Of a stretch of DNA of 64,000 nucleotides, positions 30,634 through 56,800 are shown piece after piece. The position numbers were made by a program, and so were the translations under genes. The DNA is from Mesostigma viride (Eukaryota > Streptophyta > Mesostigmatophyceae > Mesostigmatales > Mesostigmataceae): contig RPFO01001109.1 of assembly GCA_009746045.1 (NCBI GenBank), forward strand, positions 1-64,000, written 5' to 3'. Below the pieces are notes generated by a model. That model searched no databases. It was not told the origin of the DNA and worked only from the letters and a program-made list of their open reading frames with translations. Each line of letters starts with the position of its first letter. Position 1 is the first letter of the stretch.

Positions 30634-30655
30634 CGTCTACCCGCAGCGAGACCCC
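30634..30655. repeat. Intron-type palindrome copy 3' of the transposase-like gene
   Basis: CGTCTACCCGCAGCGAGACC is a diverged member of the 22-bp palindrome family, 11 bases after the last stop codon of the minus-strand gene. Confidence 0.6.
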
Positions 30656-30665
30656 AATTTCTTGT

Positions 30666-31412
30666 TTAAGTCGGTGCCGGCCCCTCCGGGGCTTCATCCT
30701 TGATCACCAGCGTAGTAAGCCACTTGTCGAGCTCCTTGCTCATCCTGATGTCGGCACACATTCCGTCGCTGCGCACGCGTGCTTCTAGCCGGAGAGCCGG
30801 AGCGACGCAGAGATAGCAATTCACAAGCTCGGGCTGGCGTGACGGTGGCCAATCCTCAACGTTGAGCGTGAAATGCAGGGGGTCATGCTTATCCCGCTTC
30901 CAAATCCGAACGGGAAGAATGCCGTTCCCGGCGAGGAACAGCTCCTTCTCCCGTCCGTTCCGGCCCTCGACCCACCTCTCGAAGTTCTCGTCTAACACGA
31001 TCGGCCCGGCTTCGCTTACAACCTCAGCCAACCAGAACGGGTGGATGGGATCGTGATCCGTGTCCTTGTCCGATGGAACTGCCACATAGTCGTGGAGTCT
31101 CATCTGCCGGCCCATCGCCTCCCGCTTGTCCTTCAGCTGCTCCCCCCGCGTCACCATGCGAACCGGAGGGTTGGGCTGGCTCGGTGGCAGCAAACGGACA
31201 GTTTTCATCGAGCTTCCTGCATCATTGAACTCGATGATAAACGACCACTCGCTTAGACATCCCTCAAACCGCCCAGCCAAACAGGGCGGACAGTAGCAGG
31301 AATAGCGCCTAATCATCAAAAGGCCAGGGTCGGACTTGTCCAGTCGCCACCAATGCGCCTTCTTGATGCCAGGCACCTCCTCAACCTCCGCGCGTCGGCC
31401 GGACTCGACGTC
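30666..31412 (-). CDS. Transposase-like gene, exon 5
   Basis: Begins after the acceptor AG at 31414-31413 with DVESGRRAEVEEV. It includes AHWWRLDKSDPGLLMIRRYS followed by CYCPPC...C, a Cys-rich motif typical of the C-terminal part of this family. It ends GPAPT-stop. The remaining ~200 residues are well conserved in appearance (no stops), with WxLAEVV and LNVEDWPP segments, but no named domain. Confidence 0.6.
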   Translation of the reverse strand, partial: DVESGRRAEVEEVPGIKKAHWWRLDKSDPGLLMIRRYSCYCPPCLAGRFEGCLSEWSFIIEFNDAGSSMKTVRLLPPSQPNPPVRMVTRGEQLKDKREAMGRQMRLHDYVAVPSDKDTDHDPIHPFWLAEVVSEAGPIVLDENFERWVEGRNGREKELFLAGNGILPVRIWKRDKHDPLHFTLNVEDWPPSRQPELVNCYLCVAPALRLEARVRSDGMCADIRMSKELDKWLTTLVIKDEAPEGPAPT

Positions 31413-31483
31413 CTGTCATCAAATAGTTAGGACAAAAAGAATACCGTTCAAGTTAGCAAAATTGACCAAAAACCAATAAAACA

Positions 31484-31824
31484 GGGTATAGCTGCAGAGA
31501 GACCCCTTACAAAAAAAAAAATTAACGACAAGACATCAAGTGATCAAAATTCGACACAGGGTATAGCTGCAGAGAGACCCCATTCGAATCATAATAACAA
31601 CGTACGACAAGATATCAAGTGATCGAAATTCGACACAGGGTATAGCTGCAGAGAGACCCCATTCGAATCATAATAACAACATACGACAAGATATCAAGTG
31701 ATCGAAATTCGACACAGGGTATAGCTGCAGAGAGACCCCTTCATACCGATAGAACAAGCGAAATTTCATACCTAAAAGAAAAGCAACCCATGGACAGTAT
31801 GTAGGGTCTCTCTGCAGAGATACC
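31484..31824. repeat. Intron 4 tandem array with five palindromes
   Basis: Units of about 79 bp (AAGTGATCGAAATTCGACAC plus palindrome plus CATTCGAATCATAATAACAA) repeat with palindromes at 31484, 31559, 31638, 31717 and 31804. Each core reads GGGTATAGCTGCAG plus AGAGACCCC; the last is GGGTCTCTCTGCAGAGATACC. The array lies wholly within intron 4 (31413-31898). Confidence 0.85.
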
Positions 31825-31898
31825 TTTATTGGGTTTGAATTTTTATAGAACAGCGGCAGTTGACGTCTTAAAACCTGAAATAACACAAAATTCCGTAC

Positions 31899-32664
31899 CG
31901 GGGGTAAAAGGAAGAAGTGGCGAGTGACGTTCTCGGCCCGCGCGCGGGCCGACTCCCTGCTCGATGTCTTGCCGCCCTGCCAGTTCTGGTTCAAGTAGGC
32001 GACTAGCTGGTGGGTCTCAAGTATATGTGCTGGTTTTCGGGAATCCTCTGCATTTCCCTCAAGGCGCACTTGCACTTCGCTCCTTGACCATCCACCTCCC
32101 CCTTCCCATGCTGCTCCCCCATGTAGTGGAACTCAAAGGCCTGCAGGTCGGGATCCCCCATGAGCAGACCGTTAATCTGGTTAATCACGTACCTGGACTT
32201 AACCTTACCGAGCACATGTACAGGTTTCGCACCTCTACCCCTACTTCTACCCGCAGTGTTTCCAGAATCTTGCGAAGAGCGTATACGAGTGCGCGCTCGC
32301 CCCGCTTGATACTGGAATCCCCCAGGAAAAAGAAGACGCGCTTTTCCAGCTCGCCGTTGAGCCGATAACGCACGATCATGGGCATCAGGATGTGGCTGCG
32401 CTTGTGGAAGTACTGCGATTGCAGTTGGACGTAGTTGCTGTTCTCGTAGTTCTCGGCCCAGTCGCCGTGCACGAGCACGTCCCCCTCTCTCAGATTCTTC
32501 TCCCGATCCTTGATTGTATCCGCCTGCGACCAGGCCGTAAAGCAGTGCACGGTGAACTTGTCCCACCTCTTACGAATCTCGTCCCGCAGCTCAGCTGGGG
32601 TGGACCTCATTTGGACTTGCTCGGGCCGCTTCACCTTCTTCGCCGCCCTGCCATCGGTCTCGCC
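31899..32664 (-). pseudogene. Transposase-like gene, exon 4 (catalytic core), frameshifted
   Basis: Starts GETDGRAAKKVKRPEQ after the AG at 32666-32665. It carries EGDVLVHGDWAENYENSNYV (first acidic residue, 32446-32463), FFFLGDSS, then after a frame break KSRYVINQINGLLMGD and FEFHYMGEQHGKGEVDGQGA (32087-32110), then after a second break THQLVAYLNQNWQ. In related proteins an SDG motif precedes the KSRY-like segment. Here it falls exactly at the first frame break and is not seen. The exon ends at GTACGG (donor at 31898). Confidence 0.6.
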
Positions 32665-32740
32665 CTGTTTCGCAAAGGTCCGCAGACAGTTTCGATTTGC
32701 AATAAAATCGCATTTCGATCAGATAACTGCAACTTACACA

Positions 32741-32762
32741 GGGTCTCGCTGCAGCTATAGGT
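32741..32762. repeat. Palindrome in intron 3
   Basis: GGGTCTCGCTGCAGCTATAG plus G, inside the 158-base intron 32822-32665. Confidence 0.75.
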
Positions 32763-32822
32763 CACAAAAACAAAAAGTCAACAACATTTTAACGGAGAAA
32801 TTTAAAATCAAAACCTACTCAC

Positions 32823-33160
32823 CCTCACCCCTCGGGTCACAGTCTGCTCCACCATCTCGAACTTGAACCAATTCAGAATCTCCGTGGAATTCTTGTCCCG
32901 ATCACACTGCACCCAGTTATGGATGCCGCATGATTCCTCAGGACAGAACCCCTCCACACACGCCATCTTCAGTATGCGGTGAACCCTCTCCGTCCTCGGC
33001 ACCCCATCTTCGTCCTCCACCAGCCTCTCAGAAATGTCGAGGTCTTCCAGGTCCCGTCCCCGCCATTCATCTTCCCCCTCCCCCTCTTCCATCCCCCCGC
33101 CCATTCCGCCCCCTTCACGCAGCCCGTTATCCCTGCCGTCAGCCTCGGCGTGTCACGGAC
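32823..33160 (-). CDS. Transposase-like gene, exon 3
   Basis: The 3' part reads VHRILKMACVEGFCPEESCG then HNWVQCDRDKNSTEILNWFK, with a clear donor GTGAGT at 32822. Joining it to exon 4 keeps the frame. The 5' boundary is uncertain; a candidate acceptor lies near 33145-33160. Cys/His spacing fits the zinc-binding middle of the family. Confidence 0.55.
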
Positions 33161-34483
33161 GCGAGCTAATATGTCATCCGGGCGCCCACTATGCACAAGA
33201 CCGGTGACGTGCGCAAGGAATTTGTTTTCTACGCATTTTCGACAAAGGCTAGTGACCGCGGGGGGGGGACACTAGCACTTGCAGCATAAGAGCGGACGAA
33301 AGTGTACGTGCACGCGCGCCGGGCCAGGCACAGCTGGGCGCGCAGCACTGACTTGAGCGGACGGCAGCACAAGTGCGCAGCGTCGAGAGGATCATACGCG
33401 TGTTAGTGGACAGCTGGAGCTGAAGCTGGACTGCTGGACTTCAACAGCGCCGAGGCTATTGACAGGCCAGGTGTCTTTGTGGTGTAGAATAGCGGGTCAA
33501 CGTTATGAGGACTGGACAGAAAATGGAAAAGGACATTTTGCGGTGCGGAGCCAGATCGCTGGAATGAATGCGAAATCGCTGGCAGCCCTACAAAGGGATT
33601 TCTTCTAGAAAGGAACGATTAGACGCAATGTTTGCTGGGCCACTCACACGCAAGGTGTGAGCATGCAGATTTTCTGAAGGATATTATGCTTCGACCTTGC
33701 TGGACGTGACTCAATGTCGGACATTCCCAGGGACAGAAATGCCGGAGCCTCTAGGAGATGAGATCGGCAACAGGGTAGCAATTTAGATTTGTCGGGATGC
33801 CTTCCTGCTTTTGTTGGCATGTGTGGTAGAAAGCCAGGACGGCAACTGGAATGCGGTTTCTATTTGCATGGTTCAGGCAGCAAGATAGTTTTGGCATTCC
33901 TGGCTGGACTGACAAGTGTGGCGTGTGTCATGCGTGTGGCATGACGAATGGTTTGGTTCATAGTCGAAGAGGACTCTCACGCAGCGTGTAGTCTCTTCGA
34001 GTCTCTCGTTAGTGGCCTTCGTGTTTCTCCCTTTCCTTGGGAGCAAGGCCGGTAGCATGTCATGGAGCGCTGCCTTACTGCGGGCTCGTGAGCATGGAGT
34101 GCATCGATATTGAGACTATCAACGTGTTGTAATTGTATTAACTTTCTCAATAAATTCCGCATGTGCGGCTTCATCATCAGACTGTGCAAAGTGTGTGTTG
34201 TGAAAGCATTGTTCTATAGCAGGGGAGGCAAAAGCACCCTCTTGCACCATCATATTGTCGCAATTAGAGTAGTTGGAGCGTCTAGCTAACGCCCCAGCAA
34301 GGATATTCAAACGCGGCACGCGACGGTACACAAGGGGATCAAGAAGGTGGTCATCAGGCACGAGGGACAGTTCCTTGTCCTCGGCTGAGAGCCCTCATTT
34401 CATTATCATGGGACAGGTCCTCGCCCACCCCACAGGGCATGCAGTTAAGGCAGGCACGTCAGCTCAGCTCATTTGGGGTTTAC
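33161..34483 (-). other. Long intron 2 or insertion, no recognised gene
   Basis: 1.3 kb between exon 2 and exon 3, much longer than the other introns of this gene (158-486 bases). There is no palindrome, no ORF of note and no recognisable transposon ends. It may be an intron enlarged by a decayed insertion. Confidence 0.45.
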
Positions 34484-35691
34484 CAAATTAAGCTGAGTGG
34501 CCAGCCGCCATGGTGGCGCCGGAGATTGTGGCACGCAGACGCGACAGGCGGACACCGGGCAGTGAAAGTGCTTGATCCAGTCCGTCGTGTGAATGGCTTT
34601 CCACATTCCGCAAGTACCGTCCGGCAGTCTGTACTTGGAGCATCCCGCACACTCAGCGCCACATTGGCACTTCTTGCCGTGGTGCGCATTGCAGTACGAG
34701 GTCCACGCCCCCATGGCCGACTGCATGGTGACGTGCTTCTCACACGCGCACAGGTTCCTCTCCTTCCACTTGCCCTTGATGCAATCGGGCGCGTATTTGC
34801 AGAAGGTCGTGTAGCCCACGTGAATGCCCACCTCCTTATCATACTGGTCACTCCTTTTGTTCCAGTACGCGTGCTTTTCGAGAAAGTGATCGTACATGTC
34901 CTCCTTGGAGGTCATGTAATAGCGCGCTCCCTCAACGGCGACGAGCACCCCGTGATTGCCACGGCCCTCCCTGCTGTAAGTGCGCTTGACATCCTTCATC
35001 TGGGAGGAGGCGCGCGACTCATCATCGTGCATCCACGCGTCCACTATCGCGTCAATCACGAATTGCGGCAAAGGGCGCCCCTGGCGAGCCTGCGCGTGTC
35101 TGAGGTAGTCCAGCTTCTGCTGCCTCCGAATCGCGCGAATTCCGCGAATCTTCTTGGCGTCCATCCCCGTCAGCTTCTCCAACTCCGCGGCCGAAAACTC
35201 CTTCTCCAAGTCGTCACCACAGTAAAGCGTGGACATCAGCACCATCCTGACGTCTCTGTCTGGGTCGCTTTTGGTCAGACCATCAAAAAAGCCGTTAATC
35301 CGAGCCACCCAGAACCTGTTCAGTTCTGCCATCCGCTCCTGATTGTAAAGATTTTTCGCCTCCTCATGATACAGCCCGTGACCTAGTTCAGCAGCCCTAG
35401 AGTTAAAGCCAGCAATCATCTGCTCGAATGCCGGCCCCCGCCCCTCGGTTTTTGTCATCGCCTGAGCCGCTTCAAACGCCTTGTCAGCGAAAAATTCCCC
35501 AATAACCCTCTTGGATTTCTTGTATTCTCCCGGCCGCTTGACTTCCTTGGCTTCAGGCTGCGCTGGATTCTGGTTCTCATCTCCGAAAACCCTTTTTGCG
35601 CCAGTTGGCTGCTTCGTCCCGGTGTTCAACTTAATTGCACTGAATCCTGGACGACCGGACGCAAGGGCGAAAACTCCCACCCGTTCGCGTG
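34484..35691 (-). CDS. Transposase-like gene, exon 2 (Cys-rich N-terminal region)
   Basis: About 400 residues beginning RERVGVFALASGRPGFSAIK after the AG at 35693-35692; the first codon is split with exon 1. It contains a low-complexity start (AKRVFGDENQNPAQPEAKEV), a helical region (AAELEKLTGMDAKKIRGIRA, LPQFVIDAIVDAWMHDDE) and a Cys/His cluster: FCKYAPDCIKGKWKERNLCA, CEKH, then CQCGAECAGC and CGMWKAIHTTDWIKHFHCPV. The helix plus basic-rich part may bind DNA. The donor is probably GTAAAC at 34483. Only conceptual translation supports this. Confidence 0.6.
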
Positions 35692-35800
35692 CTGCATGCA
35701 ATGACGACCGGCATAACGAAATCCATGCAAATCGAGTATCGTTGGGAAAAGCGACAATTACAGACAAAGTTCGAAAGTGTATCATTTTTTACCACGATTG

Positions 35801-36062
35801 GGGTCTAGCTGCAGCTAGACCCTTAGTAGAGGGGCTTTTTCCGTTAGACGAAAAGATTACCGGATGTGGTGAACTTAGCATACCCAAACCAAGATTGGGG
35901 TCTCGCTGCAGCTAGACCCTTCATTGCGGCGTGCGATTGATAAATCACAGACTTCTGATTCATTAATTTTATAGTAACCATAAAGAGGGTCTAGCTGCAG
36001 CGAGACCCTTGAATTTAAGCTATTGCTTGTGGTTAGAAATGGTCTAGCTGCAGAGAGACCCC
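35801..36062. repeat. Four palindromes in intron 1
   Basis: Copies at 35801-35822, 35898-35919, 35987-36008 and 36041-36062 inside the 404-base intron 1 (36095-35692). Cores are GGGTCTAGCTGCAGCTAGAC plus CC and close variants mixing the TAG and TCG arms. Confidence 0.85.
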
Positions 36063-36095
36063 AATAAGGACGAAAAGATTTCAGGTTTTCCTCAC

Positions 36096-36147
36096 CTTCG
36101 CGGCTCATTCTCTTATTAGTTCTCCCAGGACACTCAGATACCTGCAT
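36096..36147 (-). CDS. Transposase-like gene, exon 1
   Basis: A short first exon, MQVSECPGRTNKRMSRE, with donor GTGAGG at 36095. Splicing to 35691 gives an in-frame join (codon GCA across the junction). The start is the only nearby ATG. Confidence 0.5.
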
Positions 36148-37507
36148 GGCGGGAATAACAAAAATAACACAGTAGCATTGATAAAATGGCTATCAGAAAA
36201 TATATATACTAATACATTTTGCAAAAGATTTTATAATATATTGTGAATAGCATGGATTAATTTCCACATACTTTAATAATATGGTATGTTAAAGTATATA
36301 GAATCATTATTTAGGAAATCATTTACAAGAAAAAGTGGTATACAGTATTATTATTTTATAGTTCGGCAATCTATAATAGTAAGACATACCGGATGGCAGG
36401 TTTATCAGCGGCCTCCAGGGCTATAGCGTCTCGCTGCAGCGTGACCGTTTGGTGCTATGACTGATTTCAGTAGATGTGCAGAAAAAAATTTATTACCATG
36501 ACCACACCAGGAATCGAACCCAGAACCTCATTGTACATTTCTGCATGGTAACGATGTCAACCAAACATCCGAATGTTCCGGGGTAAATTGGCTGGAGGTC
36601 GTCTCTTTTTATACCTGCGGCCACAAGCACGGGTGACGGCATATTGGATGTCGTCCAATCCGCTAGCTTGGTGTCCAAAAAATGGGATCGAGCCTTTGCA
36701 CCAGCGCCGCGCTTCCAGTTTTCAGTTCCGTGGGGAGGAACGAGGATGCCACGTTTCCAATTTTTTCAATACCGTTCAGCCCTGTGACGCCGCGTCCGGT
36801 TTGCGAATTGCGACGGTCCCATTGCACATCGAAAAAGAAGCGCAGCCGCAGAGAGACCCCATCGCTGATACGAGCTGCCATATCGTTTCGACGTTTGCAT
36901 GCTACCTGCTGGATTATAAAATCCTACGTTGATACCTGCCTGGTGCCGGAAGTTTACAAGGAAATCGGTCTGCTTTCGCCGCACAACGAAAAAAAGGTGA
37001 GCTTTTGCCGCATCCTGGATGGTAGGCTGACTAAAATTGTTCTATCAAAAACGGCAACTAAACAGCGCATGCACGCCGACGACACAGTTAGCCAGCTGGG
37101 CGAAGACATGTCCTTGCTGCCATCGCAAGAAACTCTACGTTGCAGCAAGAGTGATAAATCTCTCTGGGCTACTTCTTTTCGTTGCTAGCGGAACCCTGCA
37201 GACATCTCAGTAGAGTCAGCTAAGCCGATCCTAATCCACATCTGGCATCCATCCCTTTAGTCTAGTTGCCCTGGAGCGTTTCTTTGTCTCGCACATGTCG
37301 ATCATGGTGGTGCTAGGCTTTCACTTGGGTCACCCTTTCAATGTTTGCTATGCCTTTGGTCTGGTTAGGTTATAGGTGTAGATGTGCACATACTGCATTT
37401 GCCGCGTTTCTAATCGGTGCTCACGTTAATGCTGTTTTTCCCCCTTCCTTTATGCGTGCAGGTAAATGTGCAACGAATATGGGCTCTTTATCCCTGGCTG
37501 CTTCGTG
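36148..37507. other. Spacer between the two palindrome-rich genes
   Basis: AT-rich from 36180 to 36400. It carries diverged palindromes at 36426-36447 and about 36838-36860. A 70-base segment at about 36488-36560 resembles a degenerate minus-strand tRNA or tRNA-derived repeat: GGGTTCGATTCC box B-like sequence, a mirrored GTTACCATG, but no matching acceptor stem. Open frames at 36573-37188 exist but I cannot support them. Confidence 0.4.
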
Positions 37508-37686
37508 GTGGGGTGCTGGCAGTAAATACATATGTGGGGGGTTGCTGGCATGAATAAATAAATGTGGGGGGGTGATGCTACGTATCAATAAATGTGGGGG
37601 GGGGATGCTACGTATAAATACATGTGGGGGGGTTGCTGGCATGCATAAATAAATGTGGGGGGGTGCTGGCATGAATAAATATATGT
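37508..37686 (+). repeat. 30-bp G-rich minisatellite, block 1
   Basis: Units of the form TGCTGGCATGAATAAATAAA followed by TGTGGGGGG. The block is interrupted at 37687 by LINE copy C. Confidence 0.9.
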
Positions 37687-38350
37687 TAAAAATATAATTA
37701 CTTACAGCAGAGTGAAATCACTCAAACCAAAGCAAACGCCCAGCTATAAACCTATATACAGAGCCATGTCAAAGCTCTATACTACGAAGTACGATAAGAC
37801 CAATGGAAACGCCTAACGGGAGGAACCTAATAGCCCTGCTGCACCGCAAAATCAGCCCGCGTACGGCGGAGCATGATGTCCGCCATGGCCCGAGTCAGCG
37901 CCACCGACAAGCGCTGACGCCAATATGACGTCCAGGTCCGCGCCGACCATGGGGCCCGCTGGCCCTCCAGGTCCAGCCGGTCCTCCCGGAGCCGGCAACA
38001 CTCCTTGAAGAAGGCGGAGGTCAGGGGCCCCATGGCCCCAAACTCCTCCAGGACAAAGGGCACCACACGATGGTGCCCGACGTCGCCGTAGGCCAGGAGC
38101 TTGGCCCGCTCCGCCCGGTCCGCCGTGTAACCTGCCGTGAGGGAGGCCCCAGCCACGTGGCTAAGAGCCAAGGGCCGCGCCACCGAAACGTCAATAAGCA
38201 GATGCCGGCCACCCCCCTCAAAGTCCAGCACCACGATGTCAGGCCGGTGGTTGGGGGAATAGAAGGCAGCGCCATCCGCATCCTCGGACCGGATGTTCGC
38301 GTGGGGGAAAACCGACCGAATCATGGCGAGCACCACCGTCAGGAGGACAG
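37687..38350 (-). mobile_element. LINE copy C, endonuclease-domain tail, inserted in minisatellite
   Basis: It is flanked by AATAAATATATGT on both sides (37674-37686 and 38351-38363). The minus strand encodes the same endonuclease fragment as copy A, from VLAMIRSVFPHANIRSED to QQGY-stop at 37827, followed by the same 3' untranslated region. It is 5'-truncated at 38350. It is identical to copy A over the shared protein as far as I can read. Confidence 0.88.
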
Positions 38351-38762
38351 AATAAATATATGTGGGGGGGTGCTGGCATGCATAAATAAATGTGGGGGGT
38401 TGCTGGCATGAATAAATAAATGTTGGGGGGTGCTGCTACGTATAAATACATGTGGGGGGAGGATGCTACGTATAAATACATGTGGGGGGATGCTGCTACG
38501 TATAAATACATGTGGGGGGGGGATGCTACGTATCAATACATGTGGGGGGTTGCTGGCATGAATAAATAAATGTGGGGGGGTGATGCTACGTATCAATACA
38601 TGTGGGGGGGTGCTGCTACGTATCAAAACATGTGGGGGGGGGATGCTACGTATCAATACATGTGGGGGGGGGATGCTACGTATCAAAACATGTGGGGGGG
38701 GGATGCTACGTATGAATACATGTGGGGGGGTGCTGCTACGTATCAATACATGTGGGGGGGGG
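38351..38762 (+). repeat. 30-bp G-rich minisatellite, block 2
   Basis: A continuation of the array with both unit types: GCTGGCATGAATAAATAAAT plus GTGGGGGG, and GATGCTACGTATCAATACAT plus GTGGGGGGG. Confidence 0.9.
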
Positions 38763-39545
38763 ATTGAATTGAATTGAATTGAATTGTAACATAACTCCGT
38801 TGGGAGTATATGTAGCACATAGCCCTTGAGAGGGGGCATATGGCCTATCATACATCCTAAGCTACTTCCTGCAAGGGTGGGGATGTAAAGGACCCTTGCT
38901 CTAGGTGCACCAGGGCACTTGCATCCCCATGATCTTCAAGCTATGCCCAGCGAAGGGGGAGCCTGTCATGGGGGGGAAGATCAGCATAGCTATACAAAAA
39001 GGCTAGGGCATGGCGTCTCAGCAGAGAGTTACTCCCTGCATGGGCACAACATAACTAAATAAAGCTAGGCATCATCTGGAGTGTGGCACATCATAGGCAC
39101 ACATGTACATGATTAAATAAAGCGTGTGGCTTAGCTAGCTAGGATAGTGCCTCTAGGAGGCGTACATGTACATGGCCACGGTCTATCTGTTCTACACTAC
39201 TATACTGCTGTAGTCCCCTAAGCTGGGGCGTCTGGAGTCGTTGGGGCCGCGGGGGTCGCCTGCCAGGGCTTGTGGCCGACGTAGATGGCCGCCCCCTTCC
39301 AGTACACCGGCTGCCCCGCCTTGGTCTGCCGGAGCTGGAGGTAGGTCGGCCATAGCTCCCGTCGCCGTTGTTGCTGCGCCAGGGTCAAGTCGTCGTCAAG
39401 GGTGAAGAGAGTCTTCTCGAGCCGCTTGCGGCGTCGGAGAAAAGAAATCTTGTCCGCCGGGGTCTTAAAGGTGAGAAGGAGCGGGGGCGGCCCTGCCTTA
39501 CCCCGCGCGCGGGGAAGGCGGTGGGCGACCAGGTCGATCTCGGAG
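38763..39545 (-). mobile_element. LINE-derived element with ORF1-type end and no RT
   Basis: The plus-strand left edge is a (TTGAA)n tail followed by TAACATAACTCCGTTGGGAG and ATGTAGCACAT. That block recurs at the 3' end of the LINE at 47576-49317 (TAACATGTCTCCGTTGGGAG, ATGTAGCACAT), so both use a related 3' terminus. Instead of reverse transcriptase, the minus strand upstream encodes an ORF1-like end. It is inserted into the minisatellite with a probable G-run/GAT target duplication. Confidence 0.7.
39218..39544 (-). pseudogene. LINE ORF1-like C-terminal fragment
   Basis: 108 residues read PPPLLLTFKTPADKISFLRR, then KTLFTLDDDLTLAQQQRRRE, then YWKGAAIYVGHKPWQ and a stop at 39218. The pattern (a hydrophobic strand, a basic helix, a D-D-L segment, an R-R-E helix) resembles the RNA-binding C-terminal region of L1 ORF1 proteins. 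The 5' part is missing. A plus-strand frame across the same region is not coding. Confidence 0.55.
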
Positions 39546-41659
39546 GGGGGGGATGCTACGTATCAATACATGTGGGGGGGGATGCTACGTATCAATACAT
39601 GTGGGGGGGGATGCTACGTATGAATACATGTGGGGGGTGCTGCTACGTATCAATACATGTGGGGGGGGATGCTACGTATCAATACATGTGGGGGGTGCTG
39701 CTACGTATCAAAACATGTGGGGGGGGATGCTACGTATCAATGCATGTGGGGGGGGGATGCTACGTATGAATACATGTGGGGGGGGGATGCTACGTATGAA
39801 TACATGTGGGGGGGTGCTGCTACGTATCAATACATGTGGGGGGGGGATGCTACGTATCAATACATGTGGGCGGGGGATGCTACGTATAAATGCATGTGGG
39901 GGGTTGCTGGCATGAATAAATAAATGTGGGGGGTTGCTGGCATGAATAAATAAATGTGGGGGGTGCTGGCATGCATAAATAAATGTGGGGGGGTGCTGGC
40001 ATGCATAAATAAATGTGGGGGGGTGCTGGCATGAATAAATAAATGTGGGGGGTTGCTGCTACGTATAAATAAATGTGGGGGGGTGCTGGCATGAATAAAT
40101 AAATGTGGGGGGGTGCTGGCATGAATAAATACATGTGGGGGGTTGCTGCTACGTATAAATACATGTGGGGGGGGGATGCTACGTATAAATGCATGTGGGG
40201 GGGTGCTGGCATGAATAAATGAATGTGCCGGGGGGTGCTGGCATGAATAAATAAATGTGGGGGGGTGATGGCATGAATTATTCAATGTGGGGGGGTGCTG
40301 GCATGAATAAATAAATGTGGGGGGTTGCTGGCATGAATAAATAAATGTGGGGGGGTGATGTAATGAATAAATACATGTGGGGGGTTGCTGGCATGAATAA
40401 ATAAATGTGGGGGTTGCTGGCATGAATAAATAAATGTGGGGGGTGCTGGCATGCATAAATAAATGTGGGGGGGGTGCTGGCATGCATAAATAAATGTGGG
40501 GGGGTGCTGGCATGAATAAATAAATGTGGGGGGGTGCTGCTACGTATAAATGCATGTGGGGGTTGCTGGCATGAATAAATAAATGTGGGGGGGTGATGGC
40601 ATGAATAAATAAATGTGGGGGGGTGCTGGCATGAATAAATAAATGTGGGGGGTGCTGCTACGTATAAATGCATGTGGGGGGTTGCTGGCATGAATAAATA
40701 AATGTGGGGGGTTGCTGGCATGAATAAATAAATGTGGGGGGTTGCTGGCATGAATAAATAAATGTGGGGGGTGCTGGCATGAATAAATAAATGTGGGGGG
40801 TGCTGCTACGTATAAATGCATGTGGGGGGTTGCTGGCATGAATTAATAAATGTGGGGGGTTGCTGGCATGAATAAATAAATGTGGGGGGGTGCTGGCATG
40901 AATAAATAAATGTGGGGGCCGGTGCTGCTACCTATCAATACATGTGGGGGGTGATGGCATGAATAATTAAATGTGGGGGGTGATGGCATGAATTATTAAA
41001 TGTGGGGGGTGCTGGCATGAATAAATAAATGTGGGGGTGCTGCTACGTATAAATGCATGTGGGGGGTTGCTGGCATGAATTAATAAATGTGGGGGGTTGC
41101 TGGCATGAATAAATAAATGTGGGGGGGTGCTGGCATGAATAAATAAATGTGGGGGGGTGCTGGCATGAATAAATAAATGTGGGGGTGCTGCTACGTATAA
41201 ATGCATGTGGGGGGTTGCTGGCATGAATTAATAAATGTGGGGGGTTGCTGGCATGAATAATTAAATGTGGGGGGGTGCTGGCATGAATAAATAAATGTGG
41301 GGGGGTGCTGCTACGTATCAATACATGTGGGGGGGTGATGGCATGAATAATTAAATGTGGGGGGGTGATGGCATGAATTATTAAATGTGGGGCCGGGGTG
41401 CTGGCATGCATAAATGAATGTGGGGGGGTGCTGTCATGAATAAGTAAATGTGGGGGGGTGCTGGCATGAATAATTATTTATGTGGGGGGGTGCTGGCATG
41501 AATAAATAAATGTGGGGGGGTGATGGCATTAATTATTCAATGTGGGGGGGTGCTGGCATGAATAAATAAATGTGGGGGGGTGCTGGCATGAATGGTTACA
41601 TGTGGGGGGGTGATGGCATGAATAATTAAATGTGGGGGGGTGCTGGCATGAATAAATTT
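39546..41659 (+). repeat. 30-bp G-rich minisatellite, block 3
   Basis: About 2.1 kb of units of roughly 30 bp. ACGTATCAATACATG-type units dominate at the left (39546-39900) and CATGAATAAATAAATG-type units at the right, with hybrids between. Every unit carries a run of 5-8 G on the plus strand. Opposite-strand open frames of PPHLFIHAS-type repeats are artefacts. The two inserted LINE pieces show that the array was once continuous from 37508. Confidence 0.93.
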
Positions 41660-47366: not shown

Positions 47367-47386
47367 GTAAGCTATCTGTTTTGGCA

Positions 47387-47478: not shown

Positions 47479-47575
47479 TCTCCTTTTTTTGTTGGAATTT
47501 TCGTTGCGTATTGTCGGCCTGTCGCCTACCGTGCAGAAGCCTTCCCCCTTGGCCCCATGCGCGGTCTAAATGCAT

Positions 47576-49317
47576 TAAAAAATTAAATTAAATTAAATTA
47601 TAACATGTCTCCGTTGGGAGATCATGTAGCACATATTCCAGGTTGGATGGGTGGTGTGGAGGAAGCCGCGTAATCGAACTAACCTACTCTAAGCTAGATC
47701 TAGTCTAGAAAAGCCTATCTACGCTACTCATCAAAACGGCTCCTCCGTTTGGGGGGAGGCGGCTTGCCCACAGGGGCTGGCGTGTGCGCCTTGACAATCT
47801 TCTTCCACCGCGTCTTGTCCTGCATGGCAGTCCAAAGACGGGAGAGAGAGTGGATGCGGTACTCAAACTGGGCTGGGACCACTAGGTCGTCCAGCAACAT
47901 CTGGGTATAGGTCATGGCATGTTTCCCTACCTTTTTAGGAATGTTCTTGGGGCCAGGCCAGGTCAAAATGTGCCGCCCCGGTTGGCCGAGCCGCTGGGGA
48001 CCGGCCAGACCAAGGGCGGTGTCGACCTGGCTGGTGCGAGCAAGATGTCCTACAAATGCTATCCTACGCTGTCTAATCTCGTCCGAAATACGCGGCATAC
48101 CGTGATACAAAGACTCTAAGGACCTACGCTGAGAAAACCCGACATTCAGGACCTGTCGGAGCATCCGGGTTACCGTGCCGTCTAGCTTGGCTGCCAGTGT
48201 TGCCGTGAGTGTCCATGCCTCGGCGCCATACGTGAGCACCGTGAGGACGAGGACCTTGAAGAGCATGCGCTTGCGGTGCTCGTCCAGGCCCTTGGAGCGC
48301 CAGTAGGTGTTGAGCGAACGGAGCTTGGCCCAGGAAAGGCCGATGCGGGTGTCCACATCGTCGGCAGTGTCCGGAAGCCAACTCCCCAACAGCTTGAAGC
48401 GGTCGCGGAGTGGGACCTCCGTCCCGTCTAGCAGGCGCGGCAGCGGGGGGCGACTGGAGGCCCCAATCACCATCGCCTCAGTTTTGACACTAATCTCCAA
48501 CCCCACCGCCCTCGCCTCCAGGCCCAGACAGTCCAGCCAGGTCTGAATGTGCTCGGGGCGCGCGATGAGGGTGGTGTCGTCCGCATAAATCAGGTCAGCC
48601 AGGCGGTAACCCGTGCTAACCCCGCCGTGCCCACGCTCGTTAAGGATGTCCAAGCCTGGCTCGAACCCCTTAAGAGCAGTAAAGCGCGCACGTGCCTGGC
48701 GCATGACGTGGTCCACGACAATAATGAACAGGTATGGAGACAGGACACAACCTTGCCACACCCCGTGGTGAAGGGGGAATGGTGGGGTGGTGCCTTCCGC
48801 AGTCCGCACTACTGCCTGTGAGCCCTCATACAGTCGGCGAATGGCAGCAATAAACGCTGGTGGCACGCGGTCCAGAGCTAGGATGGCCCAAAGAGCCTCC
48901 CAGAGGACCGTGTCAAAGGCCTTGATATAGTCAACAAAAATGAGGACCAGCGGCAAACTGTCAGGGGGAAGGCGACGCACCTCCTCCATCAACCGGCGCG
49001 CGACAAACACAGCCATGACAGTGTTACGACCACTACGGAAACCCATCTGAGACTCACCCAGGTGTGGGTCCAGCGCGGCGCGGAGCCTGTGCAGCATCAT
49101 GCGCATGAAGACCTTCAGCGCGGCGCTCTGGAGGCAGACACCCCGGTAGTTACCGGGGTCAGCAGCAGAGCCCTTCTTGTACAGCATGACGCGGATGGCC
49201 GTCTGCCACTCAGCAGGCGGAGGCTCGTCAGAGAGCAGGACACGGTTGCAGAACGCCAGCAGAAGATCCCTAACCGCCGGATCAGGGGTCTTCAGCAGCT
49301 CTGGGCTCAGCAGAAAG
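47576..49317 (-). mobile_element. 5'-truncated LINE (RT) inserted in LTR-like unit 1
   Basis: It is flanked by a 15-bp target duplication GCGGTCTAAATGCAT (47561-47575 and 49318-49332). The 3' end on the minus strand is a (TTTAA)n tail. 1742 bp. The duplicated target sequence is also present undisturbed in unit 2 near 50701-50720, which confirms the insertion. Confidence 0.93.
47724..49317 (-). CDS. LINE reverse transcriptase, N-terminally truncated
   Basis: Open from the 5' truncation (TAFLLSPELLKTPDPAVRDL) to a TGA or TAG at 47724 with no frame break, about 530 residues. Reverse transcriptase motifs are in order: GVCLQSAALKVFMRMMLHRL, SQMGFRSGRNT, FVDYIKAFDTV (first catalytic aspartate), GVWQGCVLSPYLF, and LIYADDTTLIA (catalytic YADD). 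The tail has YGAEAWTLT and RRIAFVGHLAR, typical of LINE ORF2 C-termini. No restriction-like endonuclease follows, so the endonuclease was probably an N-terminal APE domain now lost. A single intact frame implies a young copy. Confidence 0.92.
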
Positions 49318-50657
49318 GCGGTCTAAATGCATATCCACTGCAATTACCATGCGGGCAAAGACCAATTATAAATTCAGGGAACCAAATAACATGGCTCTAT
49401 GCCTCCCTAGCATAGTCAAACAAGGTCAGCCAAGCTCAGTAGGCCTCCCTTTTCATTACGGAAGATGATGTGTGGGCTCTGCCCCACTGGCAGCCACCCG
49501 TTGCAAGAGCAGTTCCTACCGACCTTTATGACATAACGCTTAACAAGATTTTGTTATTCACAAATAAAATTGAGAATACATTTTAGCCAAAACCAATGTT
49601 CATCAACAAGAAAGACTGGCTAATTCCAGCCCCTGGCCTGCCTAGCTTCGAGCAAACAAGTCCGGCATGTCCAATACCATGAACATCCGCTACCCGCTCT
49701 CCTTACGGAAGTTGGCCTTGTCCGGATGTATGCCAACACCCAGCCAACCGCTCTCACCCTAAGCTACCGACAGTGCCCAGGCGAATCTACCATACTGGCA
49801 GTCCCTGCGACGACTGTCCTCGAGACAAATCCAAAAAGGCTTAACTTGTATGCCTATCTCGCCTCGACCCATGAAAACAATCTCGCAACCATCACGGAGG
49901 TTGCGGCCGGGTTGTTCTACTAGTTAATCACATGAAGACAACTGCGTCGTTGTGAAGTGAAAACTGAACGAACAACGACCACAATGGCCGACTGTTCATC
50001 CTTTTAACCTGCGCAAGCTAACCTTTCCAACATGACATCAGCCAGTGACAACCAAAATACGCTGAACAAGGTGCCGCAAATCTAGCATGCGCTTTTTAAC
50101 GTTAGATCAGCTGGTGCTTGCCTGACACAAACCAAATCTCATGAACAAATCTGTCCAAGCACGAGCTAAACAACTTGTAGATATTTTGCAACACTAAAAA
50201 GCGCTGCCGCAATCAGAAATTAACCAGGCTAAATTGCCGGCCATCTCAGGCACCGCTGCTCAAAGCGTGCTGACCGTTCGCGACGTTTCACGTGTAGCCC
50301 TGGTCGTTCTCCACAAAGTCTGGTGTCCCTCGCTGTAGTCCTGGCAGAGCACGTGATCACTGGGCCGGCAGCCAGCCCAACATGCCTGGCCTGCCTTAGT
50401 GGCGCGCGCCAGCGCCTAGACTGCCCTGGTGACGACCGGTAGCCCAAATCCCCCCTTAGCCCACTGCCGCAAATGCGAACGCACTCGCACTTGGACAAAT
50501 TCAGAAGATCCGCCGACGATTCAACGGACACGTGATTCCGCGGCGCGGCGCCAAGACAAAGCGGTAAAGTAAACCGCAAGGGTTCCACGGACGTAAAAGT
50601 CACGTCACAATAGTTTACCCGCGCGTAAATAAGAACGTAATGGACCGGCACGCGACA
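49318..50657. repeat. LTR-like unit 1, right part
   Basis: Continues unit 1 after the LINE and ends GGCACGCGACA. Two short frames (plus 49726-49923, minus 50229-50651) recur identically in unit 2 because the units are duplicates. Neither resembles a protein. Confidence 0.75.
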
Positions 50658-50659
50658 GC

Positions 50660-52378
50660 TGTCGCCTACCGTGCAGAAGCCTTCCCCCTTGGCCCCATGC
50701 GCGGTCTAAATGCATATCCACTGCAATTACCATGCGGGCAAAGACCAATTATAAATTCAGGGAACCAAATAACATGGCTCTATGCCTCCCTAGCATAGTC
50801 AAACAAGGTCAGCCAAGCTCAGTAGGCCTCCCTTTTCACCCCCTCTCGCGAGCAGCCTCAACGCGAGCGACAAAGAAAGGAGGGGTCATGAAGAAACAAG
50901 CGCACAGGCTGCGCTGTCCAAAGGGGGAAAAAAAAAAAATGGGGTGATACCCCCCCCCCAGCCCTCAGCTGGGTGCAAGAAGAAGACCATGCTTTTCATT
51001 TTTCAAGGATAAGCAATAACCCTGACATGCATGCTTTTAAAGGCTTAGCAATAACCCCTTCAATGGTTTTTTACAGGGAAAAGCCTAACCTCTTCAGATG
51101 CTTTTGAAGGCTAAGCAATAACCTCTTTCCACCACTAGGCCGGTAGGCCTGACTCCTGACAAGGTTGTTCGTTCAGTTACGGAAGATGATGTGTGGGCTC
51201 TGCCCCACTGGCAGCCACCCGTTGCAAGAGCAGTTCCTACCGACCTTTATGACATAACGCTTAACAAGATTTTGTTATTCACAAATAAAATTGAGAATAC
51301 ATTTTAGCCAAAACCAATGTTCATCAACAAGAAAGACTGGCTAATTCCAGCCCCTGGCCTGCCTAGCTTCGAGCAAACAAGTCCGGCATGTCCAATACCA
51401 TGAACATCCGCTACCCGCTCTCCTTACGGAAGTTGGCCTTGTCCGGATGTATGCCAACACCCAGCCAACCGCTCTCACCCTAAGCTACCGACAGTGCCCA
51501 GGCGAATCTACCATACTGGCAGTCCCTGCGACGACTGTCCTCGAGACAAATCCAAAAAGGCTTAACTTGTATGCCTATCTCGCCTCGACCCATGAAAACA
51601 ATCTCGCAACCATCACGGAGGTTGCGGCCGGGTTGTTCTACTAGTTAATCACATGAAGACAACTGCGTCGTTGTGAAGTGAAAACTGAACGAACAACGAC
51701 CACAATGGCCGACTGTTCATCCTTTTAACCTGCGCAAGCTAACCTTTCCAACATGACATCAGCCAGTGACAACCAAAATACGCTGAACAAGGTGCCGCAA
51801 ATCTAGCATGCGCTTTTTAACGTTAGATCAGCTGGTGCTTGCCTGACACAAACCAAATCTCATGAACAAATCTGTCCAAGCACGAGCTAAACAACTTGTA
51901 GATATTTTGCAACACTAAAAAGCGCTGCCGCAATCAGAAATTAACCAGGCTAAATTGCCGGCCATCTCAGGCACCGCTGCTCAAAGCGTGCTGACCGTTC
52001 GCGACGTTTCACGTGTAGCCCTGGTCGTTCTCCACAAAGTCTGGTGTCCCTCGCTGTAGTCCTGGCAGAGCACGTGATCACTGGGCCGGCAGCCAGCCCA
52101 ACATGCCTGGCCTGCCTTAGTGGCGCGCGCCAGCGCCTAGACTGCCCTGGTGACGACCGGTAGCCCAAATCCCCCCTTAGCCCACTGCCGCAAATGCGAA
52201 CGCACTCGCACTTGGACAAATTCAGAAGATCCGCCGACGATTCAACGGACACGTGATTCCGCGGCGCGGCGCCAAGACAAAGCGGTAAAGTAAACCGCAA
52301 GGGTTCCACGGACGTAAAAGTCACGTCACAATAGTTTACCCGCGCGTAAATAAGAACGTAATGGACCGGCACGCGACA
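50660..52378. repeat. LTR-like unit 2 (1719 bp)
   Basis: A complete unit, TGTCGCC to GCGACA. It contains an extra 338-bp block at 50839-51176 with three imperfect repeats of GGCTTAGCAATAACC (near 51000, 51040 and 51105), an A-run and a C-run. Apart from that block it matches unit 1. Confidence 0.75.
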
Positions 52379-52483
52379 GGCCGTTTCTTTTTCGAATTTT
52401 GTTAGGGTCTATCCGCAGCTATACCCCTCGCCTTTTATGGCTGAGTTTTGTCGTTGCTCGCTGGATGTTAATTGATGTCGCAG

Positions 52484-53847
52484 GGGGTGCTGACCGGCAA
52501 GCTGGAGAAGCTGTTCGACATCGCCAAGGGGGCGAATTCGGAGGACTGACTTAGCCGTGGCGGATCGTACGCTGGGCCAGGCGTTGTTTGACGTGTGGAA
52601 CTACAACAAGCTATATCTATACGGCAAAGTCACGCGTGGGAAGGGCCACTATATTGCTGATGGCCACTATACCAATCTGCTCACGTACATCCTCCCGGCT
52701 ATGCGGCAAGCGGGGGGAAGGGAAGGGAATGTGGAGCCGGCAGCGGTGGATGTACACGAGGAGGAAGCAGAAGGAAAGAAAAAACCGGCCCACAGCATTG
52801 CTTCAGTGCATTCCGCTTACAGTCGCACGCTGGCCAACACGTTTCTCCGTCTGACACAGGAGCAGACTGATGATCCTGCCTCAACAAAACCCGCGCCTGA
52901 GGAGGTGATGATGCAAAGGTGCAAATTCGCCAATGCAGAGTGGGGAGAAGAAAGGCCAGAAGGTCTCTTGGACCGCTTTCAGGAACTTGGCCAGCCTTCC
53001 TATGATGGACGCCGTGATCGATTGCATCATGAGCTGCCAGGTTGGACCGGAAAAGCTCACCAAGTTGGTGGAGTTCGCCAAGGATGTGCTGGAGTGCCTG
53101 CGGCTGACCATTTGCGCCAGATTCAAGGAGGATGTGACGCTGGAAGCGCAATGCAAGGACGCAAAGGGCAAGGAGTTTGTGGCGTCTCATATTTTCGAAC
53201 TCGTCTTCAATCTCCATCCTCTTCCTCGGCCGGTCGGCAGGAAGGAGATTGTGGCCAGATACCGGGAATTTTGGGATGTGGCCGTCATCATAACGAGGAA
53301 CATCGCCTACCTTCTTAAAGCCAAAAAACACGCCGCACATCTGAGGATTCCGAGAAAGGATCTCATGAGTGGCAAGATCGACTTTCAGGAGATTCTGCTA
53401 AAAGAGAGCGAGGACAAGACGGTGGGTTTGGCACTTTTGGCTCCGGAAGCGTTCAGGAAGTACGCTAAAAAAGTTGGATTACTCGAAGGGGGGGTGAAGG
53501 AGGCGGCGATGAAGGGGCCGGTGAAGGGGCTGGAGAAGGGGAAGGGGAAGGGGAAGGAGACGGAGGCGAAGAAGGAGGAGGAGGCGAAGGGGAAGGAGGA
53601 GTGGGACGTTGTGTATGAGTGGCATAGTCTGGACTGGGGCCGTCGCCGGGTCTGGTTTTGCTGTCAGGTCCTCCTCGATGATGATGATGACAAGTCGCTC
53701 GTCAAGCAGGTGGCAGGCGAGGTTGCCTCAGCTTCAGCCCACCCCTTTCCCTTGGGCAGGTCCCTTCCGTGCCTGAGCCTGCTGAACTTGGCGAACCTCT
53801 GGGGTGATAAGTGTCTCAGTGTCCAGAGGCCTCAATTGAGGCCTTTT
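52484..53847 (+). CDS. Plus-strand gene, exon 8 region
   Basis: After the acceptor TGATGTCGCAG the frame reads GVLTGKLEKLFDIAKGANSE, then a TGA at 52547. One base later in frame it continues LAVADRTLGQALFDVWNYNK and LYLYGKVTRGKGHYIADGHY. A second frame break near 52920 leads to DAVIDCIMSCQVGPEKLTKL, FVASHIFELVFNLHPLPRPV, FWDVAVIITRNIAYLLKAKK and a lysine/glutamate/glycine-rich tail. It is either the continuation of the gene with indels or a second gene starting near 52557. No domain is recognised. The 3' part merges into the hairpin-flanked insertion at about 53848. Confidence 0.45.
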
Positions 53848-53868
53848 GGCTCAATTGAGGCCTTTTTT
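53828..53868. repeat. Duplicated hairpin GGCCTCAATTGAGGCC
   Basis: GGCCTCAATTGAGGCC followed by TTTT at 53828-53847, then a second copy lacking one base (GGCTCAATTGAGGCC) followed by six T at 53848-53866. The same hairpin with flanking A and T runs occurs at 55549-55575. The stem plus T-run resembles a terminator-like structure, but this is eukaryotic DNA. Confidence 0.75.
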
Positions 53869-55548
53869 CCCAAGATCTCACAAAGTACGGCATTTTGGCG
53901 GGAAGGACCGGTCCTATGGGTCGTCCGGCCCCAGTGGCGCGAATCTGGTACATGTGCTGAGCGTCCTGACCCGTTGGGGTCGACAGGGGTCGACGGTTAC
54001 TGAAAAATACGTGAGGTGGAAAAGTACCTATTTTGGCCACTTTCGTGCAACGGGACGAGGAATTTTCACGAATGCACGACCATGGCGGCCTCGAGTAAAA
54101 TGGACCGTATGGCCACGTTCGTGCATCATTTCGAGCAGTATGGAGCGCGTTGGGCAGATAAGTTATCCTTGAAGCTAGCCCGACCGCTAAATGTGTCAAA
54201 AGTCGATTTATAAATTCGTGGGATCGTTATTTGTGTGCTGAATGCCAGGTTAGTGAAGTTCAGATGGGGCGTAGATGGCGTTGATAGTGCGCCTGCCAGC
54301 AGGACGATGCTTCGATATGTTGGGAAGGATACTAGCGGAACGGCGGGGGGGGGTGTTGGGGCAGCCGTGACTAAAGGGGCGCTGGTTATATTCGAGCCTT
54401 TTGTCGTGAATCCATAGGTAGAGGAAGGGGTGTTTTTAGCTAGGAAAAACTGGGTTGCGGACAATAAACGCGCGCGCGCCCCCAGATATGGGAGCGCAGT
54501 TATGCGAACAGCGCTGGTGAGGCCGCTGCAGCCGCTTTCATACGTCAATGGACGAAGCATGGAGCGTCTGTCCGGCCAGATTAGCGGGCTGCATCGCTTC
54601 CGGACAACTTGAAAACGCCGAGCTTGAACAGCTTTTCTGATGCAGCCACGTTCAGCGCCAACGCATGTGCGTGCTTAGTGATCCCGGGTGTGAGGGGTGT
54701 GAAAGGTAAGTGCGTCCTGGTGGTAGAAAGGGAATGGCATCGATTTGCTTGTGATATCGCCGGTTTTTAGCTGCCTATCGGCACCTAGTGCCGAGGTAAC
54801 GTAAGGCAGGCTATATTGCTTCGTGCAGTGCTCTGCGGCTGGCCCCCACCGTGTAGACGTGTTTACTTTCCATAAGAAGCATGGCAGTTCCTGCCATGCT
54901 GGCCATGTCTCAGGCAACCCTTGCAAAGCTTAAAATCAAGCTAGAGGTCTAGAAGACAGTGCAAATGGTGTCCAGTTATGCTTGTATATCTTGCCATGTG
55001 CTGTTCATCTGCTGCCGCGGCAGCAAACCCCTGTCAGAATATACCGTAACAACGTAGATATTGGGGCTATGTGAGTGAAGCTAAGCGCTTGGAAGGTCAC
55101 ACCTATTATTATAATGCATGATCCTTGTGCGTGTTTGTAATAGAGGCTTTGGATTCCTCATGGTTACGTGCAATACCCATGGCAGGCTGTTGCTGCCTGC
55201 AGTGCTGCGCGACAGCCCCGGCCGTGCAATTGTGTAAGAGGCGTCCCTTGGGGAGCATGCCATGTCATGCCATGCTTACCGTGTTGTGGGGAAACCTCGT
55301 AAGGTCCAAAAGACACCTAAGAGGCAGAGGGAACTGAGTACTAGCGCCTTTTTTCTGCTTGCATCTATGGTCATGCTGTGTTTATGGTGCCACCGCAGCG
55401 ACACCCTGTTTTGTTAAATCATAATTAAATAGGTATTGGGGCTATATGACTGATGTTAAGTGCTGGCAACCCCAAAACAATCATAATAATGCATGGCCTA
55501 TGCTCATATTTGGAAAAAAGTTGTTTGGCTGCATGCAACACCCAATAT
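53868..55548. mobile_element. ~1.7-kb insertion in the plus-strand gene, unclassified
   Basis: The coding phrase SIEAFF (TCAATTGAGGCCTTTTT) occurs on both sides of this segment, at 53851-53867 and 55560-55576. After the right copy the protein continues WTLGHKWSNFQRGWWSYG. The segment therefore looks inserted with a ~17-bp duplication. It contains no recognisable ORF. An imperfect internal repeat links about 55040-55120 with 55420-55500 (TATTGGGGCTATRTGA, ATTATAATGCATG). It is possibly a SINE/LINE-derived or hairpin-targeting element. Confidence 0.45.
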
Positions 55549-55575
55549 AAAAAAGGCCTCAATTGAGGCCTTTTT
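55549..55575. repeat. Hairpin GGCCTCAATTGAGGCC, right copy
   Basis: A-run, GGCCTCAATTGAGGCC, T-run: a 27-base almost perfect palindrome at the right edge of the insertion. Confidence 0.75.
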
Positions 55576-56800
55576 CTGGACATTGGGACATAAGTGGAGT
55601 AACTTTCAGAGAGGGTGGTGGTCGTACGGTCCTTGCCCGCCAGCCTCGTACATTCCCGAACCGGGGGGGATCTACGATCATGTGCTGAAGGCTTGCGCCC
55701 AAGAGTTTTTCTCCAGGTTCGAACCGATGGTGATCGTGTTTGGTACCGAGCCGGCGATTAAGGGGTTTCTAGAGATAGTGGAAAGGATCGGGATTGGGAG
55801 TGAATTGTGGGAGCGGCTTGAACAGGGGGAAGGTGATGGGGGGCCTAGGCTCGGAAGGGCGAAGAAGCGAAAAGCTTCCCACGGAGCTGGGGGTCCTTCG
55901 TCGGCCGTGGTGGACAGGGATGACCAACAGTTGTTGGAGGGAGGGGATGGAGGGGATGGAGGTCCGGCAGGAGGGTCTACTCGCGGAGAGACCCCCGTCG
56001 AGGTGAGAACGCAGCAGGCCGAACAGATGACGGGGCCTGAAGGTGATGCGGATCCGCCTGCGGCGAAGAAGCCCGCTTCTCAAGTGACTCGACGGGCAGT
56101 CGTGTCACTTGCTGAGGATGATGGAGGTGGGCCTTCCAAGCCTGCCGCGCCGCAGCCCGTTTTTCAGGTTCCGAAGAAGCAGCTTCGGGTTCCCCCGCCG
56201 ACTCTGCCCACCCCGGCGCCTCTGCCCAGTTCTCAGGTACCGAAGAAGCAGCTTCGGGTTCCCCCGCCGACTCTGGCCATTTCTCAGGTACCGAAGAAGC
56301 AGCTTCGTAAGCCAGTTGTGGCAGTGGCTGATTCGGACGACGATGCTGAGGAGGAGGAGGAGGAGGAGGACGACGATGCTGAGGAGGAGGAGGGGGAGGA
56401 GGAGGAGGAGGAGGAGGAGGAGCAGCACGTTGCTACCAAGAAATCCGCCAAGGGTGGGAAGGCTGCGGAGCACGTTGCTTCCAAGAAATCGGCCAATTAA
56501 GGTGGGGAAGGCTGCCAAGCCTGCCCTGCCTCAGAAACGGCGTCGAAAAGCAGTTGTGCTTTCAGATTCGGACGATGAGGAGGAGAAGGAGGAGGAGGAT
56601 GGCGGCGGAGAGGAGGAGGACGGGGGAAAGGAGCGCGTTGCTTCCAAAAAGTTACCCAAGACCGCGAAGACTGCCAAGGTTGCCGAGCCCGCCAAACCCG
56701 CCCCGGCGCCTGCCCCCCACCCCCAGACGGGGTCTACCTGCGAGCAGAGGTCGAAGGAAAAGGCCAACAAGGGTAAGAAAAAATCTGCGAGTGAATTCTG
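55556..56800 (+). CDS. Plus-strand gene, exon 9 region: acidic, repeat-rich
   Basis: SIEAFFWTLGHKWSNFQRGW, PASYIPEPGGIYDHVLKACA and FEPMVIVFGTEPAIKGFLEI form a globular start. Three repeats of the form QVPKKQLRVPPPTL follow, then long acidic D/E runs, and KSAKGGKAAEHVASKKSAN. After a frame break near 56500 the frame continues PALPQKRRRKAVVLSDSDDE and a KTAKTAKVAEPAKPAPAPAP stretch to a donor GTATGT at 56801. Acidic and basic blocks suggest a chromatin- or nucleic-acid-associated protein. The palindrome at 55973-55994 lies inside the coding frame (GGSTRGETP). Confidence 0.45.
55973..55994. repeat. Palindrome copy inside coding sequence
   Basis: GGGTCTACTCGCGGAGAGAC plus CC, translated as part of GGSTRGETP. 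A weaker relative (GGGTCTACCTGCGAGCAGAG) is at 56729-56750, also in an open frame. Confidence 0.6.

Follow-up and report, generated by a model that had tools for sequence, protein, structure and literature searches.

A giant DNA transposon of Mesostigma viride carries conserved 22-bp palindromes, putative binding sites of a protein of its own

The analysed stretch of Mesostigma viride DNA (contig RPFO01001109.1 of assembly GCA_009746045.1, positions 1 to 64,000; hereafter the window, G000:C1458:1-64000) contains two divergent neighbouring genes, those of a transposase and of a large companion protein, together with a family of 22-bp palindromes. The presence of introns, as predicted, and of retrotransposons is a eukaryotic feature. 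Judged from the ends and copies found in the assembly, both genes are parts of one giant terminal inverted repeat (TIR) DNA transposon. The window copy occupies positions 27281–57760 (30480 bp including nested insertions), and its limits are common to the copies on C1 and C2. The stretches around other palindrome places could be aligned with the window between 27281 and 57760 but not beyond. The ends of the element are inverted repeats starting with GGGTGGTCCCACGCGG, with the termini GGGTGG. The left repeat of the window copy (27281–27344, plus strand) starts with GGGTGGTCCCACGCGGAATGGGGT, the right one lies at 57688–57760 on the minus strand, and the target site duplication TCAT was present on both sides (27277–27280 and 57761–57764). 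Target duplications of 4 bp were found in all five complete copies, namely TCAT in the window, TTAG in copy A, AGGG in copy B, GCCT in copy C and GCCA in copy D. Inverted repeats at both ends and a target duplication of fixed length, both observed here, characterize cut-and-paste TIR transposons.

The palindromes were scored with a symmetric weight matrix built from 16 window sites (the family 1 matrix) at a cut-off of 8 bits. The 64-kb window contained 27 palindromes above 8 bits, 26 of them above 10 bits, whereas 40 first-order Markov simulations gave a mean of 0.05 sites and a maximum of one above the cut-off. Since the matrix was trained on window sites, the strict evidence consists of the gap to this null and the recurrence of the sites in other copies. 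By this matrix, no site above 8 bits was found in the window outside 29.9–56.0 kb. The site is 22 bp long and two-fold symmetric, with a half-site consensus of approximately GGGTMTMKCYG. The original prediction, made from the letters of the window, had listed about 28 palindromes. Of these positions 26 exceeded 8 bits, some being off by one base, while 36838 (−1.2 bits) and 56729 (−1.5 bits) were lost and a site at 29926 (13.9 bits) had been overlooked. At up to three mismatches, 3345 palindrome places were counted in the 440-Mb assembly, 18–19 per complete element copy, and the rest of the window beyond the element had none. The 50 genome matches listed, each of them exact, all fell within copies of the giant transposon, so that among these the genome-wide spread unrelated to these gene families, which had been named as a possible refutation, was not seen. 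The viral contigs scanned with the palindrome and the transposase, a set that may omit this genome itself, gave no match.

The introns of both genes were predicted by eye from GT-AG borders, reading frame and a comparison of families. The transposase gene (30666–36108, minus strand) has three such introns, all with palindromes, where four introns, three of them with palindromes, had been expected. Intron 1 (35692–36095) holds four sites at 35801, 35898, 35987 and 36040 (35801–36061), which at first sight resemble 5' flank. It has GT-AG borders and yields the N-terminus MSREARERV in two families, and the prediction was backed by family 3, where both its phase and this start were equal. Intron 2 (32665–32822) holds one site (32741–32762). 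Intron 3 (31413–31898) holds five, at 31484, 31559, 31638, 31717 and 31804 (31484–31825), four of which lie in a 79-bp tandem repeat. The region of a possible fourth intron was one open frame in family 3. A further palindrome lies about 11 bp past the transposase stop codon (30633–30654), and one lies upstream of the gene (36426–36447), with a likely counterpart in family 3 at L039:4396.

The large companion gene (42253–57462, plus strand) is broken by nested insertions in the window copy, and its exon limits are approximate. Six palindromes, at 41711, 41761, 41869, 41977, 42085 and 42152 (41711–42173), lie 5' of it and partly in a 108-bp tandem repeat. As had been predicted for most introns of this gene, five of its seven introns, again predicted by eye, carry palindromes: those at 43590, 44937, 45392, 46037, 47387 and 47457 (43590–47478) and one in an intron split by a long interspersed nuclear element (LINE; 52405–52426). 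A third gene of 145 aa (29410–29844, minus strand) is situated near the left end and is preceded, about 80 bp upstream, by the palindrome at 29926–29947. Altogether, 26 of the 27 window sites lie outside the predicted exons. The site at 55973–55994 lies within an open reading frame of the companion gene.

A 30-bp G-rich satellite (37505–41657) separates the two divergent genes. It is common to copies A–D and to two copies on C16 and, being present in all copies compared, is part of the element; the LINE fragment inside it is an extra of the window copy. A LINE-like fragment occurs twice in the window (28239–28915 and 37674–38350, 99.7% identical), the second time within the satellite. Copy A is 20,658 bp long and is devoid of the window-copy DNA at approximately 27663–29306, 30142–30436, 33150–34547, 47519–52379 and 53813–55580. 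Three intervals had been regarded as inserted elements free of palindromes. Those at 47.5–52.4 and 53.8–55.6 kb are indeed insertions missing from copy A, but the one at 37.5–41.6 kb is more than an insertion, as it holds the satellite of the element itself. A 1.2-kb direct repeat (49452–50658 and 51172–52379, 99.9% identical) was noticed within the LINE insertion.

The sites occurred in the same order and at the same places in the window copy, in copies A, B, C and D and, over the part they hold, in the two C16 copies. Copy B lacked one unit of intron 3 and had, within inserted DNA, two further weak places (14.0 and 7.8 bits). One array unit was missing from copy C, and one intron 1 site from one of the C16 copies. 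Among the seven copies, 18 of 594 palindrome columns were variable (3.0%, six of the 18 in a single site), as compared to 203 of 1914 columns (10.6%) in ten chosen noncoding intervals and 388 of 6857 coding columns (5.7%). The odds ratio of palindrome versus noncoding columns was 0.26 (p 5e-10). When six copies were compared with copy A, the differences amounted to 0.2–1.5% in the palindromes, 2–5% at a distance of 4–40 bp from them and 1.6–3.3% in the rest, and the drop in divergence was limited to the 22-bp site. None of 5000 window sets shifted by 26–120 bp was as conserved, either with all 27 sites or with the 19 non-array sites. The palindromes are better preserved than the surrounding DNA and are under constraint.

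Family 3, whose transposase core is 66% identical to that of family 1, was sampled as a 10-kb stretch (L039), on which the family 3 matrix was also fitted. This matrix found 19 sites above 8 bits, compared to 0.08 in 60 simulations. Ten of them form an array, mostly with a 58-bp unit, on the companion side, which was judged from the layout, the array being beyond the satellite. One site lies upstream of the transposase gene, three, one and two lie in its introns 1, 2 and 3, one is directly past its stop codon and one precedes the third gene. All seven comparable places occupied in family 1 thus carry sites in family 3. In intron 3, the best alignments between the families were the palindromes themselves (21 of 22 bases), whereas outside them 102 of 228 aligned bases agreed, shuffled introns being aligned at a mean of 0.446. 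The aligned sites of intron 1 agreed at 13 of 22 bases. The array units of 79 and 108 bp in family 1 and of 58 bp in family 3 differ, which indicates that the arrays grew separately.

These data bear on the proposal that the palindromes are introner-like or otherwise independently mobile intronic repeats of neutral effect. Many copies are intronic and the tandem arrays represent local amplification, which speaks for such an origin. However, the sites are constrained, keep their places across the copies and across two families and occur outside introns too. No target duplications were seen by eye around single sites, and the seven copies offered no empty sites, barring the changes in array number and the one missing C16 site. 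The introner-like origin suggested in the original prediction is therefore regarded as highly improbable.

The symmetry of the sites was considered next to another early suggestion, an RNA hairpin acting in splicing or termination. On this reading, the transcribed palindromes would serve as hairpins in splicing or in 3' end formation. The majority of them lie in predicted introns and one is found directly past a stop codon, and at position 2 two family 3 sites have the paired bases exchanged together. On the other hand, many sites are mismatched in the would-be stem, and the arms paired about as often as after shuffling. This applied to the positions that vary among 20 distinct sites of family 1 and, position 2 apart, to family 3. 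As the arms hardly covary, a role as RNA hairpins is very unlikely. A dimeric DNA-binding protein accounts better than an RNA hairpin for two half-sites that are nearly independent and share a two-fold axis.

The half-sites also differ between the families. Of the 54 half-sites of family 1, 53 have T at position 6, and 36 of the 38 half-sites of family 3 have A or G there (16 of 18 outside the array). Such a shift within one genome favours a family-specific protein and is less easily reconciled with a transcription or chromatin factor of the host, be it one exploited by the transposon or one that silences it. Introns and 5' regions, where the sites lie, are places where host enhancers or silencers can sit, and the element-encoded binder, proposed from sequence, is itself still a candidate. 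Since the listed exact places were all within the element and none was found elsewhere in the window even at three mismatches, a host regulon becomes less likely, and we consider this explanation rather unlikely.

The proteins of the element were compared with known ones. The transposase core had a sole match, P0001 (E 9.7e-58, 47% identity), among 5.8 billion proteins searched, of which 2534 candidates shared words with it. The motifs D-x-A-E-N-Y, S-D-N-C-x-x-Q-F-K and H-G-K-G-E-V-D-G were common to the transposase sequences compared. The catalytic core is disrupted in the window copy but forms an open frame in copies A, B and C, of which copy A shows a frame change outside the core. A structure model built from three sequences reached a predicted local distance difference test (pLDDT) score of 61. 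Its Foldseek matches were mainly RNase H-fold enzymes with TM-scores near 0.2–0.35 (best E 1.5e-4, two matches at E ≤0.001). This weak model suggests an RNase H-like core, as would be expected of the transposase of a cut-and-paste TIR transposon. In the genome, 133 transposase matches were scored from 755 candidates. Nine of them, at 66% identity, belong to family 3, and the other 124 showed 89–100% identity, many of them 100%, which points to recent activity of the element.

The companion gene had no recognised domain in Pfam and protein searches, and a companion-gene exon and a transposase exon used as protein queries gave no match at E 0.01. No Pfam family was recognised in the third-gene proteins of copy C and family 3, which are 59% identical between families 1 and 3 and have further genome matches; the structure model of this protein was useless (pLDDT 33). 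The pieces of the element's proteins that were scanned gave no Pfam family above the cut-off and no match in a PDB sequence search, and the window DNA gave no Rfam match at the gathering score. DUF7869 was rejected as an assignment for the family 3 transposase, since its E-value of 0.024 is under the cut-off, and is retained as a lead only. A helix-turn-helix-like stretch was seen by eye in translations of the N-terminal half of the transposase.

With this putative stretch and with an apparently recently active element, the sites could be internal transposase-binding sites that serve transposition like an internal enhancer of the transpososome. The distribution of the sites points in another direction. 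The ends of copy A carry inverted repeats of their own. Roughly the first 970 bp and the last 1.75 kb of this copy are free of sites above 8 bits, and its sites are spread across about 18 kb without clustering. The original prediction had offered a transposase-binding repeat that a pair of genes in a single large transposon have in common. The transposon is borne out by its ends, target duplications and many copies, and the sites do resemble those bound by proteins, but the transposase is a candidate binder at most, and a use of the sites in the transposition reaction is improbable.

We propose instead that the palindromes are probably binding sites of a homodimeric DNA-binding protein which is encoded by the element and controls the expression or chromatin of the element's own genes. 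In such a system, the giant transposon would encode a homodimeric, sequence-specific protein, the protein would bind the palindromes in the introns, in the 5' regions and at the 3' edge of the element's genes, and the binding would mark the noncoding DNA of the element and control its genes at the level of expression or of chromatin state. The binding of a protein, its origin from the element and the effect of the binding are all steps that we infer from the layout and constraint of the sites. The third gene may be regarded as the first candidate for the binder and the helix-turn-helix-like stretch of the transposase as the second.

Several observations weigh against the element-encoded binder. 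No domain was recognised in the third gene, and a host protein might bind in its place, the genome places checked being the exact matches. In family 3, position 2 is C-G instead of G-C in two sites, and all 19 sites were paired there as compared to 15.5 after shuffling. In intron 2 and likewise after the stop codon, the aligned sites of the two families had 12 of 22 bases in common, little more than the remaining sequence; together with the value for intron 1, this means that place was kept better than sequence. The copies compared are close relatives that share ancestry, so that the p values overstate the case and the events are not independent. Gene conversion could add to the conservation, although it does not easily explain the 22-bp edges, as flanks would be affected too. 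CpG transitions, looked at as a trace of silencing, showed no clear excess (25/1759 versus 54/5323), transversions being raised alike (44/1759 versus 92/5323), and a form of the proposal that involves demethylation therefore gains no support. Finally, the third gene was found in families 1 and 3 and not in the stretches of family 2, but these have in common only about 0.6 kb after the transposase stop, which makes the absence a weak one, and three families appear too few to link the third gene with the sites. In one of the family 2 stretches, moreover, the family 3 matrix found two sites beyond the part common with the other.

Family 2 is more distant and matches P0001 at 52%. It was sampled as two stretches, X (L037) and Y (18 kb), which diverge about 0.6 kb past the transposase stop. 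No site above 8 bits was found in stretch Y by either the family 1 or the family 3 matrix, the part common to X and Y had no family 1 or family 3 sites and just AT-rich palindromes, and the ends resembling those of family 1 that were looked for in family 2 were not found. The two sites of stretch X lie at 4532 (14.2 bits) and 4730 (17.6 bits, palindrome TCACTCTGCAGAGTGA), 8 kb from the family 2 transposase. A G-rich satellite with a unit of 29–30 bp was located upstream of the transposase gene in all three families (37505–41657 in the window, L034–L037 in family 2 and L039:586–3158 in family 3), its sequence being different in each.

Some further features were recorded in the window. A deleted relative of the same transposon lies at 884–1371, where a Gypsy-like pol frame ends; its positions 1170–1367 match the left end of the element (85%) and positions 903–1171 match satellite-adjacent DNA (90%). 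Beside it, positions 571–592 scored 17.1 bits by the family 3 matrix and −1.9 by the family 1 matrix, and this place is perhaps a decayed site of another family. The region 13513–19094 is a probable long terminal repeat (LTR) retrotransposon, its retroelement frames being bordered by direct repeats of 387 bp that are 99.5% identical. A tandem repeat with a 184-bp unit in 3.8 copies, 93% alike, is located at 24253–24956.

To our knowledge, few transposons combine self-recognition by a protein with dispersed internal sites. In CACTA (En/Spm) transposons, the TnpA-binding repeats cluster near the element ends. The present transposon resembles them in having two main genes and numerous short repeats to which a protein of the element binds, the binding being proposed here, and differs in that its sites are internal and missing near the ends of copy A. 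The Ginger DNA transposons share TIRs and 4-bp target duplications with it, yet their termini are TGTNR and the duplications of Ginger1 are mostly CCGG or CCGT. Ginger membership was rejected, as the termini GGGTGG and the five different duplications found here do not agree with that description (PMC2836005).

The closest precedent is the VANC/VANDAL system of Arabidopsis, to which the palindromes are similar in layout. VANC binds to motifs situated in the noncoding DNA, introns included, of elements of its own family (PMC5735166). Both cases concern a multi-gene DNA transposon with motifs in its own introns, intergenic and other noncoding DNA (PMC5735166 and PMC10398659). Motif copies likewise occur in tandem repeats, and the motif differs between related families, as it does here between families 1 and 3. 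The differences are also clear. The motif of VANC21 is 9 bases long and PMC5735166 does not use the word "palindrome", whereas the site described here is a 22-bp two-fold symmetric one. The transposase is another one, and Pfam scans, which did not include a direct comparison with VANC, recognised no VANC-like protein and no Mutator-like transposase. The VANC system involves a loss of methylation or silencing, and no excess of CpG transitions was seen here. In the literature on palindromes in introns and transposons, giant algal transposons, transposase autoregulation and anti-silencing, a set covering few subscription papers and judged by titles and the opening lines of abstracts, no such system was found outside VANDAL.

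A more specific form of the proposal is possible, and we put it forward tentatively. A small protein of the element and 20–30 cognate 22-bp palindromes, dispersed over its introns and gene edges, may form a family-specific tag, the two diverging together between families. By this tag each family would recognise its own copies and keep them active against silencing by the host, and it would have evolved independently in a lineage of giant transposons in which no Mutator transposase is recognisable. If true, the present transposon would provide a second case, from a different lineage of transposons, with long palindromic sites and with two families inside the same genome. The co-evolution of sites and protein would thereby become testable, and a very specific binding pair would be gained. 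It would also call for caution, since conserved intronic motifs may serve a mobile element instead of splicing.

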